Assembly (NCBI RefSeq): GCF_020515695.1
Contig: NZ_JAIWJA010000003.1
Span: 558,001-622,000, forward strand
Reading direction: 5' to 3'
From: Pseudomonas sp. MWU16-30317
Lineage (GTDB): Bacteria > Pseudomonadota > Gammaproteobacteria > Pseudomonadales > Pseudomonadaceae
Length of the DNA stretch: 64,000 nt
Of this stretch, positions 49,494 to 64,000 are shown in pieces. Within the stretch, counting starts at the first letter, position 1. The number at the start of each line of letters is the position of its first letter. Under the pieces are notes generated by a model. The model made no database searches. It was not told the DNA's origin and was given only the letters and a program-made list of their open reading frames with translations. A program made the position numbers and the translations under genes.

Positions 49494-50720
49494 TCAGTGC
49501 CAGCGCCGGAAGATCAGCGACGTGTTGACGCCGCCGAAGGCGAAGTTGTTGTTCATGACGTACTCGTTGCTCATGCTGCGAAAGCCATCGCGCAGGTAAT
49601 CCAGTTCCGCGCAGCGCGGGTCGATCTCGTCGAGGTTGAGCGTGTGCACGTACAGGTCGCGGTTGAGCATCTCGATGCTGAACCACGATTCCAGCGCGCC
49701 GCACGCACCCAGGGTGTGGCCCAGGAAGCTCTTCTGCGAACTGATCGTCATGGCGCTGCCGAACAGGCTGGCGGTGGCCAGGGTCTCGGCGATATCGCCC
49801 TGTTCAGTGGCAGTGCCGTGGCCATTGACGTAGCCGATGGCGGTGGGCGCGAGGCTGGCGTCTTCGAGGGCCAGCTCCATGGCGCGGCGCATGGTGGTCT
49901 GTTCTGGGCGGGTAGTGTGCTGGCCGTCGGCGTTGCTGCCAAAGCCGACGATCTCGGCATGGATAGGCGCGCCGCGGGCCAGCGCATGCTCCAACTCTTC
50001 GAGCACCAGCATGCCGCCACCTTCGCCGATCACCAGCCCATCGCGGCCGCTGTCATAGGGGCGCGGGCTGGTGTGCGGGGCGTCGTTCTTCAGGCTGGTG
50101 GCGTACAGCGCATCGAACACCATGGCCTCGGTCGGACACAGCTCTTCGGCGCCGCCGGCCAGCATCAACGGCAGGCGCCCGAACTTGATCGCTTCATAGG
50201 CATAGCCAATGCCCTGGCTGCCGCTGGTGCAGGCGCTCGAGGTGGGGATCAAACGCCCAGTCAGGCCGAAGAAAATGCTGATATTGGCTGCGGTGGTGTG
50301 CGGCATCATGCGCACGTAGGAGTTGGCGTTGAGGCCCTCCGCCACCGAGTTGAGCAGCATGTTGCCGAAGGCCTTGATCTCGTCGGTGCTGCCAGTGGAC
50401 GAGCCGCAGGCCACGCCCATGCGCCCGTCCTTGATGCACGGATCGCCCAGCAGCCCGGCGTCGCTCAGGGCCTGCTCGGCGGCGCCGACGGCCAGCTTCG
50501 AGACCCGGCCCATGCTGCGCAGTTGCTTGCGGGTCCAGTGGCCGGGCACGGCGAAATCATCGATGGGTCCGGCCAGGCGGGTATTGAGTTCCTCGAAGCG
50601 ATCCCACTCGTCCATGCGCCGAATACCGCTGCGGTTGGCCGCGAAGCGCTCGCTGATGGCCTGCCAGGTGTTGCCCAGCGAGGTGATGCCGGCCATGCCG
50701 GTGACGACGACACGTTTCAT
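49494..50720 (-). CDS. Beta-ketoacyl-ACP synthase of the aryl-polyene pathway (FabF-like)
   Basis: Condenses an ACP-bound polyene chain with malonyl-ACP. From the ATG at 50720 the product is 408 residues. The Cys-His-His triad is intact: Cys164 in SSACTSGSQ, His301 in NGHGTATEQGD and His335 in FLGHTLGACGALE. So it is a working condensing enzyme, not a chain-length factor. GGAGGG lies 8 bases upstream, and the start shares one base with the stop of the ketoreductase gene (TGATG). Equivalent to one of the two or three ketosynthases of E. coli/Xenorhabdus ape clusters; which one cannot be settled by eye. Confidence 0.88.
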   Translation of the reverse strand: MKRVVVTGMAGITSLGNTWQAISERFAANRSGIRRMDEWDRFEELNTRLAGPIDDFAVPGHWTRKQLRSMGRVSKLAVGAAEQALSDAGLLGDPCIKDGRMGVACGSSTGSTDEIKAFGNMLLNSVAEGLNANSYVRMMPHTTAANISIFFGLTGRLIPTSSACTSGSQGIGYAYEAIKFGRLPLMLAGGAEELCPTEAMVFDALYATSLKNDAPHTSPRPYDSGRDGLVIGEGGGMLVLEELEHALARGAPIHAEIVGFGSNADGQHTTRPEQTTMRRAMELALEDASLAPTAIGYVNGHGTATEQGDIAETLATASLFGSAMTISSQKSFLGHTLGACGALESWFSIEMLNRDLYVHTLNLDEIDPRCAELDYLRDGFRSMSNEYVMNNNFAFGGVNTSLIFRRWH

Positions 50721-51448
50721 CAGCACAGCCCTCCGTTGACGGCCAGGACCTGCCGGGTGATGTAGCTGGCTTCGGCGGACATCAAGAAGTTCACCGCCCC
50801 GGCGACCTCTTCAGGCGTGCCCATGCGCTGCGCCGGGATCATCTTCAAGAGGTCTTCGACCGGCACATGCTCGTCGAGCATGGCCGTGTCGATCAGCCCG
50901 GGGGCTACGCAGTTGACGGTGATCTTGCGCTTGCCCAGCTCGATGGCCAAAGCCTTGGCGGCGCCGATGATGCCGGCCTTGGACGCGCTGTAATTGACCT
51001 GCCCGCGATTGCCAATCATGCCCGAGACGGACGTGATGCAGACGATGCGGCCCGCGGCGCGTCGCCGGATCATCGGCATCATCACCGGGTGCAGCACGTT
51101 GTAGAAACCATCGAGGTTGGTGCGCATCACCAGGTCCCAGTCCTCTTCGGTCAGCGCCGGAAAAGCCCCGTCGCGGGTCAAGCCGGCGTTGCAGACCACG
51201 CCGTAATAGGCGCCATGGGCCTCGACATCGGCCTGCAGAATGGTCGCGCAGGCGGCGCGGTCGGCCACATCGAATTGCAGCACCCGCGCCTGGCGGCCCA
51301 TGGCCTGGATTTGCGCCTGCACGGCGTCGGCCTCAGTGCGACCGCTACGGCAATGCAGCACCAGATCGTAGCCGGCGCTGGCCAGGCGCAAGGCAATGGC
51401 GCGGCCGATGCCACGGCTGGAGCCGGTGACCAGAATGGATTCAGTCAT
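50720..51448 (-). CDS. 3-oxoacyl-ACP reductase of the aryl-polyene pathway (FabG-like)
   Basis: Short-chain dehydrogenase, 242 residues, predicted to reduce the 3-keto group of the growing chain with NADPH. Cofactor motif TGSSRGIGRAIAL (residues 8-20), NAG in CNAGLTRDG (about 87), catalytic Ser140, Tyr153 and Lys157 in the ITSVSGMIGNRGQVNYSASK segment. It overlaps the dehydratase gene by 4 bases and the ketosynthase gene by one base. Functions with the neighbouring dehydratase to introduce each conjugated double bond. Confidence 0.9.
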   Translation of the reverse strand: MTESILVTGSSRGIGRAIALRLASAGYDLVLHCRSGRTEADAVQAQIQAMGRQARVLQFDVADRAACATILQADVEAHGAYYGVVCNAGLTRDGAFPALTEEDWDLVMRTNLDGFYNVLHPVMMPMIRRRAAGRIVCITSVSGMIGNRGQVNYSASKAGIIGAAKALAIELGKRKITVNCVAPGLIDTAMLDEHVPVEDLLKMIPAQRMGTPEEVAGAVNFLMSAEASYITRQVLAVNGGLC

Positions 51449-51912
51449 TGGGAAGTTTCCTGTGTCGCCGTTTCAGCCAGATACTGTGCGGCATTGGGCG
51501 GACGATAAACATTGAGGCGGGCGCTGGCGTGCACCCCTGGACCGGTGAGATGGCATTCAAAGACACCCATGCCGTTGTCATCTTCCAGGGTGCGCAGCGC
51601 GCGAATGCTCAGCTCGGCGCCGAGCGCAAAGCGCTCGACGTTGCATTCGAACTTACGCGTGCCGAGCAAAAAGCCCATGGCCACCGGCAGGCCCTGGCGG
51701 CGTGCGTGGCAGCCGGCATAGGCGGCGATGCTCTGGGCCATGAGTTCGACGCCGAGCCAGGCGGGCAGGCTGCCGTCGCCTTGGTTGAAGAGCCCGCCAG
51801 CGCGCACGGTCAGGCAGGTGTCGATGCTGTCTTCATCGAAGGCCAGCACCTTGTCGATCAGAATCATGTCGCCGGCGTGGGGCACCAGTTCGGCAAGGGG
51901 CCAGGTGATCAT
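51445..51912 (-). CDS. Hotdog-fold 3-hydroxyacyl-ACP dehydratase of the aryl-polyene pathway
   Basis: 155 residues from the ATG at 51912, with the FabZ/FabA-like hotdog start LVPHAGDMILIDKVLAFDED and the central helix region LPAWLGVELMAQSIAAYAG. It corresponds to the ApeP-type dehydratase (annotated 3-hydroxydecanoyl-ACP dehydratase in many genomes). Predicted to remove water from the 3-hydroxyacyl-ACP made by the adjacent reductase. The frame extends upstream to 52059, but that part lies inside the next gene and has no homology. Overlaps both neighbours by 4 bases. Confidence 0.85.
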   Translation of the reverse strand: MITWPLAELVPHAGDMILIDKVLAFDEDSIDTCLTVRAGGLFNQGDGSLPAWLGVELMAQSIAAYAGCHARRQGLPVAMGFLLGTRKFECNVERFALGAELSIRALRTLEDDNGMGVFECHLTGPGVHASARLNVYRPPNAAQYLAETATQETSQ

Positions 51913-53093
51913 CGGGCGTCTCCCAGAATCAGGCTGATATTGCTGCCACCGAAGGCAAACGAGTTGCTCATCAGGCGGCGCGGACCGTGCGAGGGCAGGC
52001 GATCGTCGACACCCGCCCAGCGCAGCGCGGGCAATTGCGGATCGGCCTGGCCGTCCCACAGGTGCGGTGGCAGGTGCCCGTCACCGGCCAGGCTCAACCA
52101 GCAGAACGCGGCTTCCAGTGCGCCGGCGGCGCCCAGGGTGTGGCCGATCATGGGCTTGGTTGACGAGCAGTGCACGCCCTCGGGGAACACCCGGTGCACG
52201 GCGTGGCTCTCCATTGCATCGTTGTGCGGCGTGGCGGTGCCGTGCAGATTCAGGTAGTCGATATCGGTTGCCGCCAGCCCGGCCTGGCGCAGCGCCTTGT
52301 TCATCGCCAGCACGGCGCCGTCGCCCTCGGGGTGCGGTGCGGAGATATGGTGGGCATCGGAACTCGCCCCGCAACCCAGCAGCGCGATAGGTGCACCAAC
52401 GGGCTCGCGGGTCATCATGAACACGGCGGCGCCTTCGCCGATATTGATGCCATCGCGAAGGCGCGAAAACGGATTGCAACGTTGCGCGCTGACCGCTTCG
52501 AGCGCCGAGAAGCCATTGAGCGTCAGCCGGCACAGGCTGTCGACCCCGCCACACAGCACAGCATCGCAAACGCCCAGATTCAGCAGCCGCTGAGCGCTGA
52601 GCAAGGCCCGGGCGCTGGAGGTGCAGGCGGTGGAGATGACATAGGCCGGGCCGCGCAATTGCAGGAGCTCGACGAGGAACTGCGCTGGCGCCTCCAGCAT
52701 CTGCTGGCGATATTGGTAGTCGTCAGGGAAGTACTGGTGCTGCAGGTAGTGGCCGATACCCTGGCTGGCCTCGTCGATGCCGGAGGTGCTGGTGCCCAAT
52801 ACCACGCCGATGCGCGTGTGACCGTAGCGCTGGATCGCGGCCTGAATATCGCCCTCGATCTGTTGCACGGCCTGCAGCAGCAAACGGTTGTTGCGGCTGT
52901 TGTGACGCGCCAGAGCCGGGGGCACGGCGGGCAGTTGTCCGGTCACCGCCGCCACCCCGACCTGGCGCTCCGGCACCCAGCCGGCCTCGCTGCGCACACC
53001 GGAGCAATCGCCGGCGAACAGCCGCCGGGCGACCTCGGCCTGATCCATGCCCAGCGCGCAGTTGATCCCCAGGGCGGTCAGGTAGGCGGTCAT
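51909..53093 (-). CDS. Second beta-ketoacyl-ACP synthase of the aryl-polyene pathway
   Basis: 394 residues, thiolase fold. The triad is intact with Cys157 in STACTSSARAL, His284 in LNLHGTATPHND and His318 in MIGHTLGAAGALEA, so it too should condense. Quite divergent from the other ketosynthase of the operon, suggesting separate roles, for example priming with the aryl starter versus elongation. It overlaps the lipoprotein gene upstream and the dehydratase gene downstream by 4 bases each. Confidence 0.88.
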   Translation of the reverse strand: MTAYLTALGINCALGMDQAEVARRLFAGDCSGVRSEAGWVPERQVGVAAVTGQLPAVPPALARHNSRNNRLLLQAVQQIEGDIQAAIQRYGHTRIGVVLGTSTSGIDEASQGIGHYLQHQYFPDDYQYRQQMLEAPAQFLVELLQLRGPAYVISTACTSSARALLSAQRLLNLGVCDAVLCGGVDSLCRLTLNGFSALEAVSAQRCNPFSRLRDGINIGEGAAVFMMTREPVGAPIALLGCGASSDAHHISAPHPEGDGAVLAMNKALRQAGLAATDIDYLNLHGTATPHNDAMESHAVHRVFPEGVHCSSTKPMIGHTLGAAGALEAAFCWLSLAGDGHLPPHLWDGQADPQLPALRWAGVDDRLPSHGPRRLMSNSFAFGGSNISLILGDAR

Positions 53094-53575
53094 GGTGTGC
53101 TCTCGGCGGGCAAGGGGCTGACCTGATAACTCAGGCCCTGGGCCAGGGTCAAGGTGAAGTCGTCGGCGCCGCGATAGTGCACCACCCAGCGCTCGCCCAG
53201 CTGACGATCGCTACCCATGGCGCGGGCCTGCGGATAACGGCTGGCCAGTTGCTCGGGTGTGGTCAGGGCGAACAGCACTGCCGCGAACAGCTCCCGTGCC
53301 TGGGGATTGGGCGGCAACAGGCCGTCGGCGCGCCATTGATTGTCGACCAGCCGCTGGCGAGCCTGGGGGATGCCGAGGAAGTCCAGCAGCGACCAGCGCA
53401 GGGCGTTGTCTTCGCGCTGAATCACCAGCATCCAGTCCTGGCGCTGTTCGCCTTGCTGGCGCAATACGTGCAATTGCCGAGGTAGTTGCAGGTCGGGAGC
53501 GATGACAGGCAGCGGTGGCTGGCTGGCGCAGCCCCCGAGCAGGAGCAGGCAGCCAAGGAGCAGGGCGCGCAGCAT
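53090..53575 (-). CDS. DUF3261 lipoprotein
   Basis: 161 residues with a lipoprotein signal (MLRALLLGCLLLLGGC, lipobox LLGG-C at about residue 16), placing it in the envelope. The rest is a beta-rich domain resembling the outer-membrane lipoprotein-receptor fold family to which DUF3261 has been likened. Found in aryl-polyene clusters next to LolA-like and MMPL genes, so a role in receiving or inserting the lipid-linked pigment is plausible. The ATG at 53575 shares a base with the methyltransferase stop; a GTG at 53578 is also possible. Confidence 0.75.
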   Translation of the reverse strand: MLRALLLGCLLLLGGCASQPPLPVIAPDLQLPRQLHVLRQQGEQRQDWMLVIQREDNALRWSLLDFLGIPQARQRLVDNQWRADGLLPPNPQARELFAAVLFALTTPEQLASRYPQARAMGSDRQLGERWVVHYRGADDFTLTLAQGLSYQVSPLPAESTP

Positions 53576-54312
53576 CACGGTGCGGCCTGCAGTGGCTTGC
53601 GGGCGACCACGTTGACGAGGGTTTCTTCGCGCTCGCCGAACGGCTTGGGGCGGCGCAGACCGAGGCGTTCGAGCAGGCCGAAGTCAGTCGCCCGGCTCCA
53701 CCACAGGTACGGGTAGGAGACGTTGCGTTCAGCGAATGCGAAGCCCTGCTCGCGCAGCATCTGCAGATACCCGGCTGCACTCTTTTGCACGTGCATGGGG
53801 TGGCGGAACAGCCAGCGGATCACCCAGGTGTCGATATAGGCTTTGGTGGACTCGGCGAACAGCAGGTAACCGCCCGGCTTGAGCACGCGATAGAACTCGG
53901 CCAGAGCCTTTTGCTGCTCGACCAGATGGTGGAAGGTCTGGTGGCAGAAGACCATATCGACACTGGCATCGGCCAGCGGCAGCTCGGCGCAGTCGCTGCC
54001 CAGCAGCTTGACCTCCAGGCCAAGGCGCTCGGCCTCCTGGCCGCTGAGGGTGAGGCTGTGGGGATCGGCATCGGCGCCCAGCCACTGCGCGGGGGCGAAG
54101 GTATCGCGCAGGTAGCGAAACGATTTACCCTGCCCGCAACCTGCGTCCAGCAGCACCGCCTGGGCGGGCGGTTGCTCGCTGAACAGGCGGCGCAGATCGT
54201 TGATTGCCACGCGCAGCACGTGGTGCTGCCAGGTGTGACTGCGCAGGAACCAGAAGCCGAAGCGGGTCTCTTCGACATAGGTGTTACTGAAGAACGCGGC
54301 GGGCTTGTTCAT
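53575..54312 (-). CDS. SAM-dependent methyltransferase of the aryl-polyene operon
   Basis: 245 residues, class I fold: motif I VLLDAGCGQGKSFRYL (about residues 53-68), the acidic end of strand 2 in GADADPHSL, motif II-like LPLADASVDMVFCHQTFHHL and LKPGGYLLFAE. Starts at the ATG at 54312, which overlaps the end of the flavoprotein gene by 4 bases. Could methylate the aromatic head group (3-methyl or O-methyl) or a terminal carboxyl. The substrate is inferred from context only. Confidence 0.82.
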   Translation of the reverse strand: MNKPAAFFSNTYVEETRFGFWFLRSHTWQHHVLRVAINDLRRLFSEQPPAQAVLLDAGCGQGKSFRYLRDTFAPAQWLGADADPHSLTLSGQEAERLGLEVKLLGSDCAELPLADASVDMVFCHQTFHHLVEQQKALAEFYRVLKPGGYLLFAESTKAYIDTWVIRWLFRHPMHVQKSAAGYLQMLREQGFAFAERNVSYPYLWWSRATDFGLLERLGLRRPKPFGEREETLVNVVARKPLQAAP

Positions 54313-55553
54313 GCGCGCGGACCCGCACAGACTTCGGCGATCATGCGCAGGCGCCGCGCCGGTTCGGCCACGAAGGGGTTGCGGCTGTCCCAGGCATAGC
54401 CGGCAAGGATCGAGCTGATCATGCGGCGGATCTCCGGGGCGCTGCCGGGGTAGAAGATCACGTCTTGAAAACTGCCGTCGTACCAGCCCTCGACATAAGC
54501 GCGGAAGGTATCGACGCCACGCTTGAGCGGCGCGGCGAACTGGCTCTGCCAGTCGACAGCGGCGCCGTTCAGCTCGGCATCGAGCAGGCCCGCGGCCATG
54601 CTCGCCGAACGCATGGCGATGGTCACCCCGGAGGAGAACACCGGGTCGAGGAATTCGGCGGCGTTGCCGAGCAAGGCGAAGCCCTTGCCGTGCAGGCTTG
54701 TGACGTTGGCGGCATAACCGCCGATGGTCCGCGCCGGGGTATCCCAGACGGCGTTCACCAGCACCTTGTGCAGGCTTGGCGTCTGGGCGACGAACTCTTT
54801 CAGGCAGGCATCCAGATCGCCCTGGCGGCCAGCGAAATATTCCTTGGCGCCGACCACGCCCACCGAGCAGCGGCCATCGCTGAACGGGATACTCCAGAAC
54901 CACACGTCGCGATGCTCGGGATGCACGGTGATGAGGATCTTGTTGCGATCGAAACCCTGGTGATCGATGCGGTCTTCGACGTGGGTGAAGATCGCCTGGC
55001 GCAGCGGGAAGTCCGAGGGCTTCTCCAGGCCTAGCAGGCGTGGCAGCACGCGGCCGTAACCGCTGGCGTCGAGCACGAACCGCGCCTCGAGCGAATATTC
55101 ACTGCCGTCTTCGCGGCGCACTTGCAGGCGCGGCGTCGCGCTGAAGTCGGCGGCGATGATTGCTTGCCCATAGCGGATTTCCACGCCCTGCGCGCTGGCC
55201 TGGTCGGCGAGCAACTTGTCGAAACTCGCCCGCTGCACCTGGAAGGTGGTGGGCTTGCCGGCGCTGAAGGTGTCGCCGAAATCAAAGGCGCTGTACTGCT
55301 CGCCCCAGGCGAACGCGGCGCCGTTCTTCATCTGGAAGCCTGCGGCCTGGACGGCATCGAGCATGCCAGCCTCCTCGACGAAATCGAGGCAGTGAGACAG
55401 CAGGCTTTCGCCAATGGAAAACCGCGGGAACTGCTGGCGCTCGACGATCAGCACGTCGTGGCCCTTGCGTTTGAGCAGGGCGGCGGCAATGGCGCCTGCG
55501 GGACCGGCGCCGATCACGACGACCGTGCGCTGTTCGGATTCAAGGATTGGCAT
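54309..55553 (-). CDS. FAD-dependent oxidoreductase of the flavin-halogenase family
   Basis: 414 residues from the ATG at 55553, preceded by AGGAGG. FAD-binding GxGxxG is VVVIGAGPAGAIAAALL (residues 11-27), followed by IVER and RFSIGESLL. Two features typical of flavin-dependent halogenases are present: the Trp motif WFWSIP (residues 218-223) and a Lys at position 76 in GFQMKNGAAFAWG, near where the catalytic Lys lies. The third FAD motif reads LLGNAAEFLDPVFSSGV. Related proteins occur in xanthomonadin clusters, where the pigment is brominated. Halogenation is possible, but a plain desaturase or hydroxylase role cannot be excluded. It overlaps the antiporter-fragment gene by 14 bases. Confidence 0.8.
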   Translation of the reverse strand: MPILESEQRTVVVIGAGPAGAIAAALLKRKGHDVLIVERQQFPRFSIGESLLSHCLDFVEEAGMLDAVQAAGFQMKNGAAFAWGEQYSAFDFGDTFSAGKPTTFQVQRASFDKLLADQASAQGVEIRYGQAIIAADFSATPRLQVRREDGSEYSLEARFVLDASGYGRVLPRLLGLEKPSDFPLRQAIFTHVEDRIDHQGFDRNKILITVHPEHRDVWFWSIPFSDGRCSVGVVGAKEYFAGRQGDLDACLKEFVAQTPSLHKVLVNAVWDTPARTIGGYAANVTSLHGKGFALLGNAAEFLDPVFSSGVTIAMRSASMAAGLLDAELNGAAVDWQSQFAAPLKRGVDTFRAYVEGWYDGSFQDVIFYPGSAPEIRRMISSILAGYAWDSRNPFVAEPARRLRMIAEVCAGPRA

Positions 55554-55872
55554 AGGGCCTCCTGGCAAGGGCTTGCAGAGTAGTGGGCGCGCGATGCAGC
55601 CCGGCGACGGCCGGCAGCAGCGTGGCGGTGAGGCTCATGGCCATGAGCGCGAAATACAGCGCCGGGCTGACCAACTGCTGTTGCAACAGCAGGTTGAGAA
55701 AAACGATTTCGCTGAGCCCGCGAATATTCAGCAGCAGGCTCTCGCGCCAGCGACTGGCACCGGCGAAGGACGGCGTGGCCCAGTACAGCCCCAGCCAGTT
55801 ACCGGCGATTTTGCTGAGGATCGGTACGCCGATCAGCGCCAGCACCAGCAGCCAGAACAGGGCGATGATCAT
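55540..55872 (-). CDS. 110-residue fragment of a CPA2-type cation/proton antiporter
   Basis: A short membrane protein resembling only the last two or three helices of Kef/NhaS3-like antiporters: a first helix (MIIALFWLLVLALIGVPILS), then SLLLNIRGLSEIVFLNLLL and LVSPALYFALMAMSLTATLL. This corresponds to the conserved N-x-RGL-x-E-x-x-LN region of the family. The N-terminal 250-300 residues of such transporters are missing. Its ATG overlaps the exporter stop by 4 bases and its end overlaps the flavoprotein start by 14, so it is kept as a coupled gene rather than lying as debris. It might be a decayed gene, or a small partner of the exporter. Confidence 0.6.
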   Translation of the reverse strand: MIIALFWLLVLALIGVPILSKIAGNWLGLYWATPSFAGASRWRESLLLNIRGLSEIVFLNLLLQQQLVSPALYFALMAMSLTATLLPAVAGLHRAPTTLQALARRPYANP

Positions 55873-58217
55873 GGCAGTGCCTGCTCGTCGCTGCGGGCCT
55901 TGGCCGCCCATGGCGCGAGCATGAAGCTGAACGCCAGGCCGAGGCTGACGGACAGGCCGAAGTTGCTCACCGCCGGGGTGGCCGATATCGCCAGCAGGCC
56001 GAACGACAGCCAGGTGGTCGCGGCCGCCAGCAAGGTGCCCAGCAGGCTCACGGCGGCGCCGCCGATCTGCTCGCGCATGAGGATGGCGTAGTCGATGCTG
56101 ATGGCCGTGACCAGCAACAGGCCGAACAGGCTGAACAGCGTCAGCGGTTGCCCCATCCAGCCCAGGCTGGCGAGGCTGCACAGCGCCGCCAGCAATGGCA
56201 GGCAGATCATCCGCACGGCGCCGCCCAGGCCGAACGGCAACACCAGCAGCGCCGCGATCAGCACGCAGGACGCCAGCTTGAGTTCGGCGGCGCTGACCTG
56301 CGTCGCGGCGAACAGGCGGTTCAGTTCGCCCAGGCGATCGACCCACTGCACGCCCGGCAGGCCGTCGGCCGCCTGTTGCAGCAGCGCCGCATTGCCCAGG
56401 CCCTGGAGGCTGACGGTGGCACTCACGCCCAGGCTCGTGGGGCCCAGCCACAGGGTGCGCCACGGCTCACCCAGGGGGCCGGCGAGCACCTGGTCGATGT
56501 CTTCGGCCGGCGCGGCTTGCAACTGCGCGAGCTCCATCTGCAACCCTGTCTGCGGCAGGCCGGCGTCGATCAGCGGCTGCCAATGAGCGGGTAATCGGGC
56601 CAGTGCCGCGCGGGTCTGCTGTTGCTCACTGACCGGCGCCACCAGTTGGCTCAGAGCCAGGTAGCCTTGCAAATGGCCTTCACCGACCAGTGTGTCGAGG
56701 CGCTGGCTCAAGGTGCGCTGGCGTTCGAGCAGTTGCTGTTGATCCTTGCCGCTGACCAGAAAGAACTGGCTGGTGGGCTGGTAGCCAGTGATGCGCGCGA
56801 TGGCCTGAGCTTCCTGCATCAGCCCTGGCGGCACGCCGATCCACTGGCGGATATCGTTCTTGACCGTCAGTTGCCACAGGCCGGCGCCGCAGAACACCAG
56901 CAGCAACCCTAGCAACACCGGGCTGGGCACATGCCGCAGCAGCGCGGCGCGCAGGTCGACCAGGCGCTGGCTCAGGCGCAGTGGCCATTGCGGCGGTTGC
57001 AGTTGCAGGCCATTGAGCAGCGCCGGCAGCAGGCACACCGCGCACAGATACGCGCCGAGCAGGCCGGCGGCGGAAAACACCGCGATCTGGGTCAGGGCCG
57101 GGAAGGGCGTAAACGCCAGCGCCAGGTAACCGATGGCGCTGGTGGCCAGGCTCAGGCTCAGGCCGGCCAGGGTCACGCGCATCGCCGGCCAGGCTTGCCA
57201 GGGGCGCAGGCTCCAGCTTTTGGTCAGATAGTGCAGCGGGTAATCGACCGCCACGCCGATCAGGCTGGAGCCCAGCACCAGCGTCATCACGTGCATCTTG
57301 CCGAACAGCGCGACGCAGGCCACGGCACCGAACAGCATGCCCACCAGCACTGGCACGAACGCCAGCAGCGCCCGCCAGCGGCGCAAGGTCAGCAGCAACA
57401 GCACAATGATGCCCAAGGTGGCGCCACCGCCGACCCAGGTCATCTCCCGGGTGGCCTCGCGCTGACCGTTGGCGGCGTACAGCAGGCCGCTGGCGGCCAG
57501 CAACCGGGCGTCGGCCTGGGTCGCCTGCTGGCGCGCGGCGTCCACCAGGTCGGTGACCTCGAGCGGCAGTTGCATATCGAACGCATCGCCGCGGGTACGC
57601 GCCCGCAGCAGTACCCAGTTCAGGCCATCGGCCTCGCTGACCAGGGCGCCACTGGCCATGTCGAGTTGCACCAGGCCGTGCTTGGGTTGGGCGTTCTGGA
57701 TGCGCGCGGTGAGCCCCAGCCAATCGTCCTGAGCAGGCACCAGGCTGAAGCCGGCGAAGGGGTCGAACAAGCTATGCAGGCGTTGCTGGATAAACGCTGC
57801 CGGGTCTTGCTCGAGCAGCTGGCGGTCAGCGACGGGCAGCATCGCCAGGCGCCCTTGCAGCAATTGCCGACGCAGCGCCGGCAAGTCGGATTGCAGTGTC
57901 CACTGGACCTTTTCGAACAGCCCGCTGGCCTGCCATTGCTCGCCCAGGTGCTGGGCGAGGGCCACGGCCTTGGTGCGCTCAGCCTGGCCGACCAAAACCA
58001 GCAACTCACGGTTGAGCGGCGCTTGCATGCGTTCTTCGGCTTGCTGGCGCACGGCGCTGTCCTGGGCCGAGGCGTTCTGCGCGCCCGGCACCAGCTCCAT
58101 CAGGTTGGCCGACACCGGCGCGCCATGGCGCCACTGCCAGCCAGCCAGCAAGGCGACCGCCAGCAGCAAAGCCAAAAAGGCGCGAGTCAAAAGCCGCTCA
58201 CTGGGCAAAATCGGCAC
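55869..58217 (-). CDS. MMPL/RND-type exporter of the aryl-polyene operon
   Basis: 782 residues with two repeats, each of one transmembrane helix, a large periplasmic loop and five helices: TM1 near residue 12-27, the next helices at about 260-400, then a second periplasmic loop and helices at about 640-775. This is the architecture of the HpnN/MmpL family that moves lipids from the inner membrane. Aryl-polyene clusters carry this exporter together with a LolA-like carrier. The frame starts at a GTG (58217) inside the end of the lolA-like gene; the true start could be slightly downstream. Confidence 0.85.
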   Translation of the reverse strand: MPILPSERLLTRAFLALLLAVALLAGWQWRHGAPVSANLMELVPGAQNASAQDSAVRQQAEERMQAPLNRELLVLVGQAERTKAVALAQHLGEQWQASGLFEKVQWTLQSDLPALRRQLLQGRLAMLPVADRQLLEQDPAAFIQQRLHSLFDPFAGFSLVPAQDDWLGLTARIQNAQPKHGLVQLDMASGALVSEADGLNWVLLRARTRGDAFDMQLPLEVTDLVDAARQQATQADARLLAASGLLYAANGQREATREMTWVGGGATLGIIVLLLLTLRRWRALLAFVPVLVGMLFGAVACVALFGKMHVMTLVLGSSLIGVAVDYPLHYLTKSWSLRPWQAWPAMRVTLAGLSLSLATSAIGYLALAFTPFPALTQIAVFSAAGLLGAYLCAVCLLPALLNGLQLQPPQWPLRLSQRLVDLRAALLRHVPSPVLLGLLLVFCGAGLWQLTVKNDIRQWIGVPPGLMQEAQAIARITGYQPTSQFFLVSGKDQQQLLERQRTLSQRLDTLVGEGHLQGYLALSQLVAPVSEQQQTRAALARLPAHWQPLIDAGLPQTGLQMELAQLQAAPAEDIDQVLAGPLGEPWRTLWLGPTSLGVSATVSLQGLGNAALLQQAADGLPGVQWVDRLGELNRLFAATQVSAAELKLASCVLIAALLVLPFGLGGAVRMICLPLLAALCSLASLGWMGQPLTLFSLFGLLLVTAISIDYAILMREQIGGAAVSLLGTLLAAATTWLSFGLLAISATPAVSNFGLSVSLGLAFSFMLAPWAAKARSDEQALP

Positions 58218-58791
58218 GCTCCGCTGCGCTTAAATTGCTGCTGCTGGTGCTGTTGGTCATGCGCAGCACGGTGCTGTCGCCCTGAGTCTCGGCCAGTTGA
58301 ATGCGCTCGACGTACTCGCCACCGCTGATGTCGATGCGGGTAAAGATCTGCTTGAGCAGCAACGAGCGCGGGGTCAATTGCAGCGTCCAGTGCTGGGCAT
58401 CGCCTTGCAGGGCCAGCTCGAAGTCCTTCTGCAACTGGCGGCTGTCGCCTTGCAGCACGGCGAAGAACAGCTGGTTCTGCTCGGCACCGCCACCGCGGCT
58501 GGGCAGTACTTGCCAGCCGCCGGGGTCGCGACGGGCGATCCCGCGGGCGTCGATGCGGTAATCCTGCTGCACCGGGCTGCTCAGCAACCACAGCAGGCCG
58601 TTGGCCTTGGCGAGCACGAAGTTGCCCTTGCTGGTCAGCGGTACCGGCAGCGCACGCAGGTGTTTTTCCTGGATGAACGGGCCGCGCACTACGGTGGGCT
58701 TGCCCAGTTGCTGGCTCAGTTCGTCGATGCTGAATGCCTGGGCCAGGCCGGTCACGGCGAGCAGGGTGATGAGGGTCAACAGGCGGATCAT
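58198..58791 (-). CDS. LolA-like periplasmic carrier protein
   Basis: 197 residues from the ATG at 58791 with a signal peptide (MIRLLTLITLLAVTGLAQA). The mature part is a LolA/LolB-like half-barrel expected to shield a hydrophobic cargo: GPFIQEKHLRALPVPLTSKG near the start, FTRIDISGGEYVERIQLAETQGD near the end. Dedicated LolA paralogues accompany MMPL exporters in aryl-polyene clusters. It would carry the pigment, or its lipid-linked form, across the periplasm to the outer membrane. Overlaps the exporter by 20 bases and the thioesterase by 4. Confidence 0.83.
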   Translation of the reverse strand: MIRLLTLITLLAVTGLAQAFSIDELSQQLGKPTVVRGPFIQEKHLRALPVPLTSKGNFVLAKANGLLWLLSSPVQQDYRIDARGIARRDPGGWQVLPSRGGGAEQNQLFFAVLQGDSRQLQKDFELALQGDAQHWTLQLTPRSLLLKQIFTRIDISGGEYVERIQLAETQGDSTVLRMTNSTSSSNLSAAERADFAQ

Positions 58792-59213
58792 GGCAGGGCG
58801 CGCTCCACGGCATCGATAAAGACTTGCGGCGAGGCCAGCTGCATTTCGCGGCTGTCGATGGCCACGGCGACCTGTACGGTGGTGGCGCGGGTCATGCGCT
58901 CTGCGGTCTGGGCGTCGCTGATCAGATAATTGATTTTCAGGCGGTTCTCCCATTCGACCAGTTCGGCGCGCACGTTCAGGCGCTGACCGAACACCGCGCC
59001 GCGCACGTAGCGCAGTTGCATGTCGATGATCGGCCAGGCGTAGCCCGAAGCGCGCATGTCCACGTAGTTGTGGCCCAGGTGGTCGAGCAGCGCGCAGCGC
59101 GCCACTTCAAGGTATTTGACGTAGTGGCCGTGCCAGACCACGTCCATGCTGTCGACGTCGAAGAACGGCACGAGGATTTCGCTATCGACCTGCAACACGC
59201 CGCGGCTACGCAT
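58788..59213 (-). CDS. 4-hydroxybenzoyl-CoA thioesterase family protein
   Basis: 141 residues, hotdog fold with the family active-site segment VPFFDVDSMDVVWHGHYVKYLEVAR (Asp at about residue 19). Predicted to hydrolyse or edit an acyl-ACP or acyl-CoA thioester in the pathway, for example releasing the aromatic starter or the finished polyene. Its ATG lies inside the last codons of the lyase gene (8-base overlap). The substrate is inferred from context. Confidence 0.83.
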   Translation of the reverse strand: MRSRGVLQVDSEILVPFFDVDSMDVVWHGHYVKYLEVARCALLDHLGHNYVDMRASGYAWPIIDMQLRYVRGAVFGQRLNVRAELVEWENRLKINYLISDAQTAERMTRATTVQVAVAIDSREMQLASPQVFIDAVERALP

Positions 59214-60753
59214 CGAACAGGCTCCAGTGCTGATCGGCGATGCGCTGCAGGCACAGGCGCAGCTCGCCCTCCAGCGCGCGGTCTTCGATCACTGGCGCGA
59301 AGTCTTCGGCCAGTTGCCCGTGCATCTGCGCCAGGGCGGGTGGCAACGGGCGCGCTTGCGGGTCACGACCGCGCAGCCATACGCCTTGATGGGCGGCCAG
59401 CAGCGCGGCGGCGGCGACCTGTTCGGTGAGTTCGAGGCTGCGCAGGGCATCGCGGGCGGCGATAGTGCCCATGCTGACTTTGTCCTGGTTGTGGCATTCG
59501 GTGGAGCGCGAAAACACACTGGCCGGCATCGTGTTTTTCAGCGCTTCGGCGGTCCAGGCGCTGGCGCCGATCTGCACCGCCTTGAAGCCGTGGTTGAGCA
59601 TCGCGCGCTCCGTCGGGGCCCCGGACAGGTTGCTCGGCAGGCCATGGTTGTAACGCACGTCTACCAGCAGGGCCAGTTGCCGGTCGAGCAGGTCGGCGAC
59701 GTTGCCGACCAGGTTTTTCAGGCTGTCCATGGCAAAGGCGATATGGCCGCCATAGAAGTGCCCGCCATGCAGCACGCGCTCGGCTTCGGCGTCGATGATC
59801 GGGTTGTCGTTGGCACTGTTGAGTTCGGTCTCGATGAATCCGCGCAGCCAGCCCAGGCTGTCGGCCAGCACCCCGAGGACGTGAGGCGCGCAACGCAGCG
59901 AATAGCGATCCTGCAAACGGTGCAGGGGCGGCGTCGGCGCCTCGATGGCCAGGTCCTGGCGTAACCAGCGCGCCACCTGCATCTGCCCGGGGTGGGGCTT
60001 GGCGGCGAACAGACGCTCGTCGAAATGCTCGGGGTTGCCTTGCAGGGCGACCACGTTGAGGGCGGTGATGCGGGTGGCCAGCTTGAGCAGGTAGTCGGCG
60101 CGGGCGAACGCCAGGCAAGCGAGGCCAGTCATCACCGCAGTGCCGTTCATGATCGCCAGCGCCTCTTTGGGACGCAGCACCAATGGCTGCCAGCCTAGCT
60201 CGCGATGCACATCGGCGGCGCTGCGGCGCTCACCGTCGAACAGTACGTCGCGCTCGCCGGACAGGGTCGCGGCCACGTAGGAGAGTGGCGTCAGGTCGCC
60301 GCTGGCACCTACCGAGCCCTCTTCGGGAATGATCGGCAGCACGTCGTGTTCGAGAAAGGCGTGCAGACGTTCGAGCAACTCGATGCGCACGCCCGATACG
60401 CCGTGGCACAGCGACTGCAAACGCGCGGCGAGCACCGCGCGGGTGGCGCTGGCGTCGAGGGTTTTGCCCAGCCCGCAACCGTGGAAGGTATACAGATGCC
60501 GCGGCAGCGCCTCGACATGCTCCAGGGGCACCGCCACCACGCACGAGTCGCCATAGCCGGTGGTGACGCCGTAGATCACGCCTTCCTTGTCCAGCAACGA
60601 ATCGAGGAAGCGCGCGCCTTTGGCGATACGTTCACGGTACGGCGCATCGTTTTGCAAGGCGCTAGGGGCCTGCTGTTTGGCGACGGCGAGGATGGCTTCG
60701 ATCGCCAAAGGGGCCTGGCCGAACAGGATCGGCTCATGCTTGGGAGTGGTCAT
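59206..60753 (-). CDS. Aromatic amino acid ammonia-lyase (annotated family: HAL/PAL/TAL)
   Basis: 515 residues. The MIO cofactor triad is Ala150-Ser151-Gly152 in GSVGASGDLTPLSY, and the catalytic Tyr is Tyr61 in YGVTTGYGD, so it should be active. Substrate-selecting positions differ from histidine ammonia-lyase: the HAL Ser-His pair is Phe90-His91 (TFHGCGLG). The HAL Glu of NQEDHVSM is replaced by Gln423 in HNQDKVSM, which is the pattern of Tyr/Phe ammonia-lyases. I infer that it makes coumarate or cinnamate as precursor for the aryl head group. Overlaps the thioesterase by 8 bases and the acyltransferase by 20. Confidence 0.88.
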   Translation of the reverse strand: MTTPKHEPILFGQAPLAIEAILAVAKQQAPSALQNDAPYRERIAKGARFLDSLLDKEGVIYGVTTGYGDSCVVAVPLEHVEALPRHLYTFHGCGLGKTLDASATRAVLAARLQSLCHGVSGVRIELLERLHAFLEHDVLPIIPEEGSVGASGDLTPLSYVAATLSGERDVLFDGERRSAADVHRELGWQPLVLRPKEALAIMNGTAVMTGLACLAFARADYLLKLATRITALNVVALQGNPEHFDERLFAAKPHPGQMQVARWLRQDLAIEAPTPPLHRLQDRYSLRCAPHVLGVLADSLGWLRGFIETELNSANDNPIIDAEAERVLHGGHFYGGHIAFAMDSLKNLVGNVADLLDRQLALLVDVRYNHGLPSNLSGAPTERAMLNHGFKAVQIGASAWTAEALKNTMPASVFSRSTECHNQDKVSMGTIAARDALRSLELTEQVAAAALLAAHQGVWLRGRDPQARPLPPALAQMHGQLAEDFAPVIEDRALEGELRLCLQRIADQHWSLFDA

Positions 60754-61669
60754 CGGCTTTCCAGAAAGGGTAGAAGTTGAACCATTGCTGCGGTGCCTGC
60801 TGGCAATAGTGCTCCAGGCGCTTGGCGTACTGGCCGACCCACTGGGCGATCACCTGATCGCGGTCGTTACGTTTCCACTGCACCTGCTCGGCGAAGGGTT
60901 CGAGAATGACGTGGTAGCGGCCCTGCTGCTTGAGACAGAAAAACAGATTGAGCGGACACTTGAGCAGCCCGGCCAGCAGCCAGGGCCCCTGCGGGAAGGC
61001 GGCTGGCGCGCCAAGGAAGTCGACGCGCACGTGACGGCCGCCATGCAGCGGCACGCGATCGCCGGCGATGGCCAGCCATTCGCCGCGATCCAGGCGCTCG
61101 CTCAGTTGCAGCATCACTGCCGGGTTCAACTCGCTGACCTGGACGAGTCGCAGGTTGGTGGCGCCCGCTTCGCCCAGCAGGCGGTTGAAGCGCTCGGCGT
61201 GGCGGGTATGCACCAACACGTTCATGGTGACCTTTTCACCCAGCTCGGCCAGCGCTCGGCACACCTCCAGATTGCCCAGATGCGCGCCCACCAGCAGTTG
61301 CCCGCGGGCGCCGCGCATGGCCGGACGCAGGTTGGCCGGATCGACGATCTGGATCTGCTCCAGGCGCAGGCGACCGTTCCACACGTCGAGTTTGTCGAGC
61401 AGCGCGTCGGCGAAGGCCATGAATTGCCCGAACACCGAGCGCAGGCTTGGCTGCAGACTCGCCAGCCCGCTACTGACGGCGAGTCGGCGCTGATACTCCC
61501 AGATGCTCTGGCGCGCACGTTTACCGAAGACGAAGAAATACAGGACGATGCCGTACAGAATCGGGCTCAGCAGCCGTCGGCCCAGGAGCTTGACGGCCAG
61601 TGCAGTGAGTTTCATCAGCCAGAAACTGCCGCGCTCCTGATGATCGGCCCAGTGCTTTTGCTCGCTCAT
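60734..61669 (-). CDS. LpxL/HtrB-like acyltransferase of the aryl-polyene operon
   Basis: 311 residues from the ATG at 61669. A hydrophobic anchor lies at about residues 35-50 (LLSPILYGIVLYFFVFG). The lysophospholipid/lipid A acyltransferase core has the H-x4-E type motif GAHLGNLEV (about 130) and the later GDRVP and FPQGPWLLAGLL segments. It probably attaches the polyene acyl chain, or another acyl group, to a lipid or sugar carrier. Starts 4 bases inside the glycosyltransferase gene end. Confidence 0.83.
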   Translation of the reverse strand: MSEQKHWADHQERGSFWLMKLTALAVKLLGRRLLSPILYGIVLYFFVFGKRARQSIWEYQRRLAVSSGLASLQPSLRSVFGQFMAFADALLDKLDVWNGRLRLEQIQIVDPANLRPAMRGARGQLLVGAHLGNLEVCRALAELGEKVTMNVLVHTRHAERFNRLLGEAGATNLRLVQVSELNPAVMLQLSERLDRGEWLAIAGDRVPLHGGRHVRVDFLGAPAAFPQGPWLLAGLLKCPLNLFFCLKQQGRYHVILEPFAEQVQWKRNDRDQVIAQWVGQYAKRLEHYCQQAPQQWFNFYPFWKADDHSQA

Positions 61670-62400
61670 GCCCGTACTCGCCGCCAGAGGATAACCGGCA
61701 AGCGTACGAGCATGCCGAAGAACAGCTTGGCGTGCATCTTGGAGATCAGCGCGTTGTCGTGGAACAGCCGAAAGTGCGACAGGCCGTCGGTGGGGTAATG
61801 CACCTTGGTCGGCAGCCATTGCATCGGCTGGTTGCGCCAGGCCAGGCGCACGAGGATTTCGGGGTCGAAGTCCATGCGCTTGCCCAGCCGGGTGTTGCTG
61901 ATCAGCGGAATCATCACCGCCAGCGGGTACACACGAAAACCACACATCGAATCGAGAATGCGCAGCGACAGGCTGTTGATCCACACCCACACGTGGGTCA
62001 GGTAGCGCGCATACAGGCGGCCCTTGGGCACGCTGGCGTCGTACTGTGGATAACCGCACACCAGCGCGTGCGGATGCTGGCGCGAGGTGTCGAGGAAGCG
62101 TTGGATGTCCTGCAGGTCGTGTTGGCCGTCGGCGTCCACTTGCAGCGCATGGCTGAAGCCCAGGCGTTGCGCTTCATGCAGGCCGGCCATGACCGCGCCA
62201 CCCTTGCCTTGGTTGGCGGCAAGGCTCACCAGCCAGGTGTCGGGCTGCTCGGCCAACGCCTGCAGGACCTCGGCACAGCGCGGGCTGCTGGCGTCGTCGA
62301 CCAGCACGCAGGGCAGGCCGGCGCGCAGCAGTTCGGCGACCACCGCGCCGACAGCCTCTTCATGGTTGTACACCGGGATCACTGCGCAGGGCTTATGCAT
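61666..62400 (-). CDS. Family 2 glycosyltransferase of the aryl-polyene operon
   Basis: 244 residues from the ATG at 62400. GT-A fold: N-terminal CAVIPVYNHEEAVGAVV, the nucleotide-sugar Asp in LVDDASS, and the metal DxD in VDADGQHDLQD (about residue 92). It resembles dolichol-phosphate-mannose-synthase-type enzymes in length and motifs but has no C-terminal membrane domain. It probably adds a sugar to the lipid or aryl carrier of the pigment. Overlaps the ligase gene by 8 bases and the acyltransferase gene by 4. Confidence 0.85.
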   Translation of the reverse strand: MHKPCAVIPVYNHEEAVGAVVAELLRAGLPCVLVDDASSPRCAEVLQALAEQPDTWLVSLAANQGKGGAVMAGLHEAQRLGFSHALQVDADGQHDLQDIQRFLDTSRQHPHALVCGYPQYDASVPKGRLYARYLTHVWVWINSLSLRILDSMCGFRVYPLAVMIPLISNTRLGKRMDFDPEILVRLAWRNQPMQWLPTKVHYPTDGLSHFRLFHDNALISKMHAKLFFGMLVRLPVILWRRVRA

Positions 62401-64000
62401 GCTCGGCCTCGAGGAGGATGCGGCCGCTGGAGCAGGCCGCGCCACCGCTGCGGAAGGTGAAGTAGAGCTTGCCGCGCTCGGCGTCGAATTCCAGTGTCAG
62501 GTCCAGCAGGTCGCCGGGGCGTACCAGTTGCTGGAACTTCAGCACTTCCATGCCGGCAAAACGCGGCGGTATCTGCAGTGCCTGGGCCGCCAGCGCCTGG
62601 GCCCACTGCACTTGCACCACGCCAGGAAGGACAGGCGTACTGGGGAAGTGCCCGCTGAAGTACGCCAGATCCACGGGTACGCGCAGTTGCAGCAGCAGTT
62701 GCTGGCCTGCTTCAACCTGGCTCAGCACCAGCGGCAGTTTTCGCCGCTCCTGGCTGAGCAAGTCATCGATCAGCGCCTGAGGCAGCTTGCCTTGGCTGGT
62801 GAAGGGCAGTTGTTCGAGCAAACGCCAGCGCCGCGGCAGCGCCACGGCTTCGCAATGTTGCGCCAGATGTTCGCGCAGCGCCTGGGTGAGGGCGCGCCGG
62901 CCGTGATTACGCAGGGCTGCAAGACCTTGCGGGCTGAGGACCAGCAACGCGCCGAGCGCGGCGCGGTTGATGTGCACCACGCCCAGGCGCGCGTCCTCGA
63001 CCCAGGGATGGTCGATCAGCGCGTGTTCGAGCATCGGCAGGGAGAGGCGTTTTTCTTCCAGCTTGACGATGCGATCCAGGCGCCCGAGCAGCTGGAAACG
63101 CCCATCCGCCTGGAACTGCACGGCGTCGGCACTGTGCTCTACGTGGCCGACCGGCAGGTACGGGGAGGCGATGCACAGGGCGCCGTCGGCATCCTGGCTC
63201 AATTCGATATCGGCGAAGGCTTGCCACAAGGCATCACGCTGGCGCCAGGCAATACCGCCGGTTTCCGAGCTGCCGAGGATCTCCGTCGGCCGCTGGCCGA
63301 GGCGTTGTTCCAGCACGTCGGCGGTGTCTGCGGCCAAGGCTCCACCTGAAGAGAACACCTGCTTGACCGCGCTCAGGGCTGGCCAGTCGAGGTTGTCACC
63401 CATGCGTTTGAGCAAGGCCGGGCTGGTGACCCAGGCGAACTCGCGATGCTCGCGGCTGGCGCGTTGCAGGTCCTCGGGGAAGGGCAGTTGGGCGCGCCAG
63501 AAGGGCCGGCCGCTGCACAGCGGCCATAACACTCGGAACAGCAGGCCGTAGATGTGCTGAGTGGCGACGCTGCCGATCAGGCAGGCCTGGCCCAGGGTGG
63601 GCGCCCATAACTGTTCGAGGGCCTGCACTTCGTTGGCCAGTTGGCGCAGGGTTTTGTCGATGCGTTTGGGCTCGCCGCTGGAGCCGGAGGTGCACAGGCT
63701 CAGCAGGCACAGGTCGAGGTCCAGCGCGGCCGGCGCTAGCGTCTCATCGGCGTGCACGCTAAGCGCGGGGTCGCTGTCGGTCAGCCACAGGTCGACCGCA
63801 CTTGCCCAGCGGTGGCGGGTCTGCGGTTGCAGGTCGGCGGGCAGCAGCACGCTGACACCGGCACGCCAGGCGCCGAGCAGCGTTACGGCCAGCTCCCCCG
63901 CATCGGCCAGGTGCACGGCCAGGCGCTTGATGCCCCGGCGTTGCAAGGCCGCTGCCAGGCTCAGAGCGCGGCGCTGCAAGGTCGGTTGATCCAGTGCCGG
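62393..64000 (-). CDS. Acyl-CoA/ACP ligase fused to hotdog dehydratase, 5' end outside the window
   Basis: At least 535 residues; the frame stays open to base 64000, so the start is beyond the edge. The N-terminal part is an ANL-family adenylating enzyme with the phosphate loop [30 protein letters not shown] (motif for AMP binding) and [14 protein letters not shown] near the hinge. After about residue 410 comes a separate FabA/FabZ-like hotdog domain with [15 protein letters not shown], whose His is the predicted catalytic residue. In E. coli these are two genes (ApeH and ApeI types); here they form one chain. Activates the aryl acid and supplies a dehydratase for the first extension. Confidence 0.88.

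Follow-up and report, generated by a model that had tools for sequence, protein, structure and literature searches.

Aryl polyene (APE) pigments are described as the most widespread family of bacterial gene clusters in the available text of PMC8253772. It is already in print that such clusters hold an ammonia lyase gene: the accessible part of PMC5851621 names one among the cluster genes of P. donghuensis, whose cluster is similar to that of Vibrio fischeri. Here, we analysed a 64,000-nucleotide stretch of the genome of Pseudomonas sp. MWU16-30317 (contig NZ_JAIWJA010000003.1, positions 558,001 to 622,000; hereafter the window), in which a lyase gene lies amid an APE operon for a yellow pigment. 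Which amino acid does this lyase use, and does its product start the pigment? The enzyme itself is ordinary and the Phe-His pair at its selectivity positions is a known signature; among the titles and beginnings of abstracts listed in a literature search, none showed a test of a proteobacterial APE-cluster lyase. We suggest that it is probably a BagA-type, MIO-dependent tyrosine ammonia-lyase (TAL) of the Pseudomonas APE cluster, which would supply 4-coumarate as starter.

The lyase gene and its operon

The gene forms a single open frame on the minus strand, the plus strand of the same interval being interrupted by stops. With a PF00221 match of 525.9 bits (cut-off 27.3), the A-S-G tripeptide and the catalytic Tyr, its product is an aromatic amino acid lyase of the MIO type. 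Positions given for Y61, A150-S151-G152, F90-H91 and H421-NQDKVSM in the preliminary description were all correct in the translated frame; the strand, K391 and E419 were absent from it, and the latter two residues carry much of the argument below. The lyase gene and its key codons are:

59206..60753, minus strand: aromatic amino acid lyase, 515 aa, probable tyrosine ammonia-lyase (open reading frame, profile scores, alignment)
60571..60573, minus strand: codon of the catalytic Tyr61, invariant in 112/112 relatives
60481..60486, minus strand: codons of F90-H91, the selectivity pair (alignment)
60298..60306, minus strand: codons of A150-S151-G152 (MIO), invariant in 112/112 relatives
59581..59583, minus strand: codon of K391, PAL-like (alignment)
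59497..59499, minus strand: codon of E419, PAL-like (alignment)
59473..59493, minus strand: codons of H421-N-Q423-D-K-V-S427, with Gln at the Glu position of histidine ammonia-lyase (alignment)

The other genes of the operon, in the direction of reading, are:

62393..64000 and past the window end (L005:394-2229), minus strand: ApeH-type AMP ligase fused to an ApeI-type dehydratase (family matches)
61666..62445, minus strand: glycosyltransferase family 2 (family match)
60734..61669, minus strand: LpxL-like acyltransferase, likely start within the open frame 60734-62059, overlapping the lyase start by 20 nt
58788..59213, minus strand: 4HBT-type thioesterase (ApeK), overlapping the lyase end by 8 nt
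58198..58791, minus strand: LolA-like protein (ApeL), likely start (open frame to 58953)
55869..58217, minus strand: MMPL/RND-type transporter (ApeM)
54309..55568, minus strand: FAD oxidoreductase, halogenase-like (family match)
53575..54312, minus strand: SAM methyltransferase, likely start (open frame to 54903)
53090..53578, minus strand: probable ApeN (DUF3261/LolB-like cluster place), by position only and without a Pfam match
51909..53093, minus strand: ketosynthase ApeO
51445..51912, minus strand: ApeP dehydratase, likely start (open frame to 52059; family match)
50720..51448, minus strand: ketoreductase ApeQ, 57% identical to the cluster reductase of E. coli CFT073
49494..50726, minus strand: ketosynthase ApeR

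Matches to PF22818, PF22817, AMP-binding, ketoacyl-synt, Ketoacyl-synt_2 and PP-binding (ApeI/ApeP, ligase, ketosynthases, the chain-length-factor type among them, and carrier protein) mark the operon as an APE cluster. The minus strand also encodes a small hydrophobic protein of about 110 aa, MIIALFWLLVLALIG..., at 55540-55872 (inside the open frame 55540-56463), in the gap that separates the FAD oxidoreductase gene from that of the MMPL transporter.

The lyase has a fixed place. The thioesterase gene comes immediately after it in 21/21 lyase-bearing loci, and the acyltransferase gene immediately before it in 19 of these; at the two exceptions, L134 and L136, no such acyltransferase was found. 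The acyltransferase adjoins the thioesterase in six lyase-free regions, namely E. coli CFT073 and five (L178, L180, L184, L188, L189) from 20 regions, the remainder of which were fragments of contigs, had another gene arrangement or gave no APE matches. The E. coli CFT073 cluster (ApeA-R) largely has the core genes and gene order of the window, but lacks the lyase and passes directly from acyltransferase to thioesterase. Searched at the DNA level, 20,395 E. coli records gave no match to the lyase, although distant relatives would escape such a search; the extra open frames listed for the five other empty-slot regions include no standout substitute starter gene. As a partner of the lyase we also considered the FAD oxidoreductase; this idea was dropped, since its gene was found and not found in lyase-bearing and lyase-free clusters alike.

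The substrate pocket

The pair F90-H91 stands opposite the F-L of the cyanobacterial phenylalanine ammonia-lyase (PAL) AvPAL (2nyn) in a printed alignment, and opposite H89-L90 of RsTAL (2o6y) and the S-H of P. putida histidine ammonia-lyase (HAL; 1gkm) in our own, so that the selectivity positions named in the preliminary description fall on the expected columns. In the same alignment of ours, Q423 lies opposite Q436 of RsTAL and the Glu of the HAL motif NQEDH, confirming that Gln replaces the HAL Glu as in RsTAL; the HutH of this genome keeps NQEDH. K391, I395 and E419 are identical to AvPAL, the corresponding residues being M, V and N in RsTAL and M, V and S in HAL, and N422 is common to the window lyase, AvPAL and RsTAL, where HAL has Q. 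Over nine ring-side positions (F90, H91, L108, L154, K391, I395, E419, N422, Q423), which are of our own choosing and are not the 19 of PMC5651878, the window lyase is identical to AvPAL at seven, to a Pseudonocardia relative at six, to tyrosine aminomutase at four, to RsTAL at three and to P. putida HAL at two.

This pocket is strongly conserved. Our set of 112 relatives comprises the window lyase and distinct sequences from genus, class, named and five plasmid-collection loci (lowest identity 55%; APE-cluster location checked for 21 loci). All of them have an [FY]H pair (106 FH, 6 YH), followed by GCG, and the motif HNQDKVS; H91, K391, I395, E419, N422 and Q423 are invariant. To judge from these sequences, the pair appears conserved to more than chance. 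At least 80 named loci share 85-90% identity with the window lyase, 79 of them titled Pseudomonas and one Pantoea.

How is the Phe-His pair to be read? It is neither the Phe-Leu of PAL nor the His-Leu of Rhodobacter-type TAL, and it had been regarded at first as a mixed state outside the standard classes. We do not share this view. The available text of PMC5651878 presents a 19-residue active-site motif derived from AvPAL with cinnamate; sequences that depart from it at positions 6 and 7 alone and have His at the latter are linked there to a variation known with the strict TAL activity of BagA, and in two further searches most matches had YH or FH at positions 6/7, which was read as TAL-like. 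We take positions 6/7 to be the selectivity pair, because AvPAL has FL there. The window lyase, at our nine chosen positions, combines a PAL-like ring pocket with an F/Y-H pair as reported for BagA. With the account in PMC5651878, the Phe-His pair in a PAL-like pocket would therefore be a TAL-like state and no unplaced mixture, and it recurs throughout the relatives. The accompanying statement that TAL usually has His-Leu was right for RsTAL and for a lyase from a photoactive-yellow-protein operon (L131), and thus for one type of TAL only. BagA and FevV, of bagremycin and ferroverdin formation, share with the window lyase, so far as published descriptions go, a PAL-like pocket whose second selectivity residue is His; they serve another pathway, and the NCBIfam cut-off is missed.

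Profile scores and phylogeny

The best NCBIfam score of the window lyase was obtained with BagA_FevW (NF041222, a model of the kind 'exception'), yet its 393.7 bits are far below the cut-off of 1000. On the HAL models TIGR01225 and NF006871 it reached 370.3 (cut-off 539.15) and 385.3 bits (cut-off 524), missing both, whereas the HutH of this genome (L001) passed with 678 and 732.1 bits and scored 273.8 on the BagA model. Raw HAL scores alone are indecisive, because L131, which adjoins a 4-coumarate ligase, reached 470.9 with the HAL model, and for the A. baumannii lyase the HAL subfamily (395.7) and BagA models (394.0) gave about the same score. The name of NF041222 is itself worth a remark: it reads BagA/FevW, but in a table of PMC6692506 FevW is the bagremycin synthetase, the tyrosine ammonia-lyase being FevV. 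The family is easily mislabelled; according to the available text of PMC5651878, four true PALs bore wrong names in UniProtKB, HAL in three cases and TAL in one.

The 23 APE-type lyases in our 34-row tree form a single clade (100/99). Next to it stands the Pseudonocardia F-L enzyme (99/94), then AvPAL, NpPAL and 9eq5 (100/97), the last of which is called a histidine lyase in the PDB, yet reads F-L and NQN. HAL lies across a 100/99 branch from the APE-type lyases in this tree, which includes several long-branch rows. The comparison with characterised lyases that had been proposed at the outset thus places the APE-type clade outside HAL, on the AvPAL/NpPAL side. AvPAL shares this side of the tree as well as most of the ring pocket with the window lyase and differs in having Leu at the place of His91. 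Of the relatives outside the APE clade, the Pseudonocardia enzyme (L128, plasmid pLS2-2, 9926-11551) stands nearest (46% identity); it has F-L and STECHNQDKVSM, is encoded near ketosynthase genes and is perhaps a PAL of another pathway.

This genome holds further genes of the histidine-lyase type. A second HutH-like protein (G000:C22:497335-498876; L002, L199) lacks the MIO tripeptide, reading GSVGYLTHMAH where the HutH proper has GSVGASGDLAPLAHM. The protein was matched in 24/99 genomes of the family, and the loss is seen by pattern in 17/20 loci, its own included, the other three falling outside the pattern; by sequence, it is a conserved MIO-less HAL homologue. The genes hutU and hutI occur together, some 6-11 kb ahead of the window (G000:C24:540000-558500, L222), and a whole-genome search found no lyase gene beside them. 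The sole lyase gene in which both the MIO and the HAL motifs are intact belongs to contig C31 (L001, L220); about 2.6 kb from it lies a gene for the ATPase of an amino-acid-type ABC transporter.

Tyrosine, histidine or phenylalanine

Pocket, clade and operon together point to tyrosine as the probable substrate, and precedent argues in the same direction. FlxA of Chitinophaga pinensis has, in the available text of PMC3992019, a HAL-like motif 1 and Gln at motif 2; its kcat/KM was 7728 with Tyr as against 7.7 with Phe, and His gave no detected product. The structure of a tyrosine aminomutase (2ohy) combines S-H with NQDVVS. Taken together, FlxA and 2ohy therefore tell us that a second-position His with Gln present does not imply a histidine substrate. 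This bears on the proposal of a histidine ammonia-lyase, to which we give hardly any credence: the HAL-like His at the second selectivity position and the two HAL scores of several hundred bits speak for it, but Gln in place of Glu, cut-offs missed by the window lyase and exceeded by the HutH of the same genome, and a tree position outside HAL speak against it, in agreement with the initial judgement that the enzyme is unlikely to be one.

A phenylalanine ammonia-lyase, forming cinnamate that the FAD oxidoreductase of the cluster would hydroxylate later, appears improbable. It remains a rival because F90, K391 and E419 agree with PAL; in the tree, the window lyase stands nearest, outside its own clade, to the Pseudonocardia F-L enzyme and then to the cyanobacterial PALs, and the oxidoreductase gene is indeed present in the operon. 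However, PAL has Leu where 112/112 relatives have H91, YH and FH are called TAL-like in the accessible part of PMC5651878, and the FAD gene occurs in lyase-free clusters and was not found in several lyase-bearing loci. Even less probable is, in our estimation, a lyase or aminomutase whose substrate is a modified tyrosine (methyl-tyrosine, DOPA) or whose product is beta-tyrosine. It would make sense of the methyltransferase in the operon, mutase models match the family too, and the timing of head-group methylation is left undetermined for the E. coli APE in the available text of PMC8253772; against it, the methyltransferase of the window operon found no match in the loci of Acinetobacter (L126, L127) and Pseudoalteromonas (L124) that carry the lyase. 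We infer from precedent that tyrosine is the substrate of the window lyase.

Co-occurrence, gain and loss

Among 119 genomes of the genus, 91 carry both ApeP and the lyase, two ApeP only, none the lyase only and 26 neither; four genomes with a sole lyase match at 32-36% identity had been set aside beforehand. Within 369 genomes of the class, ApeP is present in 44, among them 16/16 of the lyase-bearing ones. Fisher p-values for these co-occurrences are no true probabilities, as the genomes are related. One of the two genus members with ApeP and no lyase (G091) has the last three cluster genes only, within the 20 kb read. The second (G094) retains the rest of the cluster genes that were looked for, and the stretch between its acyltransferase and thioesterase genes ends in 17 residues matching the lyase C-terminus (score 37, reached in 0/300 shuffles); on its N-terminal side the match to the lyase is weak, with 6/300 shuffles scoring as high. 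Given the C-terminal remnant, G094 has therefore probably lost its lyase. In a ketosynthase tree, presence of the lyase requires at least six gains or losses (21 plus and 9 minus rows, with row L195 counted as plus since its genome, G367, carries the lyase in another piece).

Two further genomes deserve mention. Pseudomonas costantinii LMG 22119 has three contigs, each with a lyase locus (L113, L114, L116; 88% identity to the window), which are either real copies or an assembly artefact. In G080, which has ApeP, the lyase match (C1:4905672-4906987) is split into two overlapping pieces in the manner of a frame shift; this may be a sequencing error in a genome that is 86% complete.

The starter of the pigment

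The window lyase would convert L-tyrosine to trans-4-coumarate, the ApeH-type AMP ligase encoded three genes upstream would presumably load 4-coumarate on the starter carrier protein of the cluster, and the ketosynthase-reductase-dehydratase cycle would extend the loaded starter. That the lyase makes the aryl starter had been suggested from the operon, and we find this suggestion backed by both context and the flexirubin precedent: in the available text of PMC3992019, flexirubin formation sets out from Tyr and passes through 4-coumarate, by the action of FlxA and of FlxY, a 4-coumarate ligase. FlxA, with Gln at motif 2 like the window lyase, thus reportedly starts an aryl polyene pigment from tyrosine, the role that we infer for the window lyase; it differs in its HAL-like motif 1, and the window lyase reaches only 303.6 bits on the FlxA model NF053541 (cut-off 700).

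But why should a cluster that is published with another starter carry a probable tyrosine lyase? According to the accessible part of PMC8253772, the E. coli APE is predicted to start from 4-hydroxybenzoate and ApeH of X. doucetiae loads it, and in the available text of PMC8041823 and PMC8358021 4-hydroxybenzoate was used or modelled with A. baumannii enzymes. The word 'lyase' is absent from the main texts of the latter two; the A. baumannii cluster L126, which may come from a strain other than theirs, carries a relative of the lyase. It is conceivable, though unlikely in our view, that the enzyme is a tyrosine lyase whose 4-coumarate is shortened to 4-hydroxybenzoate or just supplements its supply, with the ligase loading 4-hydroxybenzoate. 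The published loading and A. baumannii data fit such a route, as does G094, which probably lost the lyase and retains a stop-free ligase stretch of 425 aa. Against this, a UbiC-type chorismate lyase is present in 11/16 lyase-bearing genomes of the class, this genome included, so that most of them need no lyase for 4-hydroxybenzoate, and a side-chain-shortening gene was not seen among the family-matched cluster genes. For 4-coumarate as direct starter, the context provides the argument.

Two other lines were pursued and dropped. Absence of UbiC is not a convincing cause for the lyase, as the frequency of UbiC in lyase-bearing genomes compares with 225/369 overall. The ligase is no useful witness of the starter either: its tree was weak, and scores of eleven ligases on TIGR02372 (4-coumarate ligase) overlapped, with 92.5 for the window, 94.7 for L126, 102.3 for L124, 129.3 for L123 and 87.1 for L139 among the lyase-bearing clusters, and 75.1 for E. 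coli, 81.8 for L178, 101.8 for L188, 91.8 for L184, 75.0 for L189 and 77.9 for G094 among the lyase-free ones.

Implications

We lean towards the view that, wherever an APE cluster carries the lyase (as do those read here from Pseudomonas, Acinetobacter, Pseudoalteromonas, Caballeronia and Burkholderia), 4-coumarate and not the published 4-hydroxybenzoate is the pigment starter in the living cell, and that the lyase would be a starter cassette, removable and confined to one fixed slot. The structure of the product alone is uninformative on the starter, because a 4-coumarate starter extended n-1 times and a 4-hydroxybenzoate starter extended n times end in one and the same skeleton. If our view holds, the extension count in published APE schemes would be off by one for lyase-bearing bacteria. 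And if tyrosine is indeed the substrate, APE pigments would have two starter routes, one of which goes unmentioned in the available accounts of the reconstituted A. baumannii pathway, and the choice of starter would be readable from one gene in one slot.
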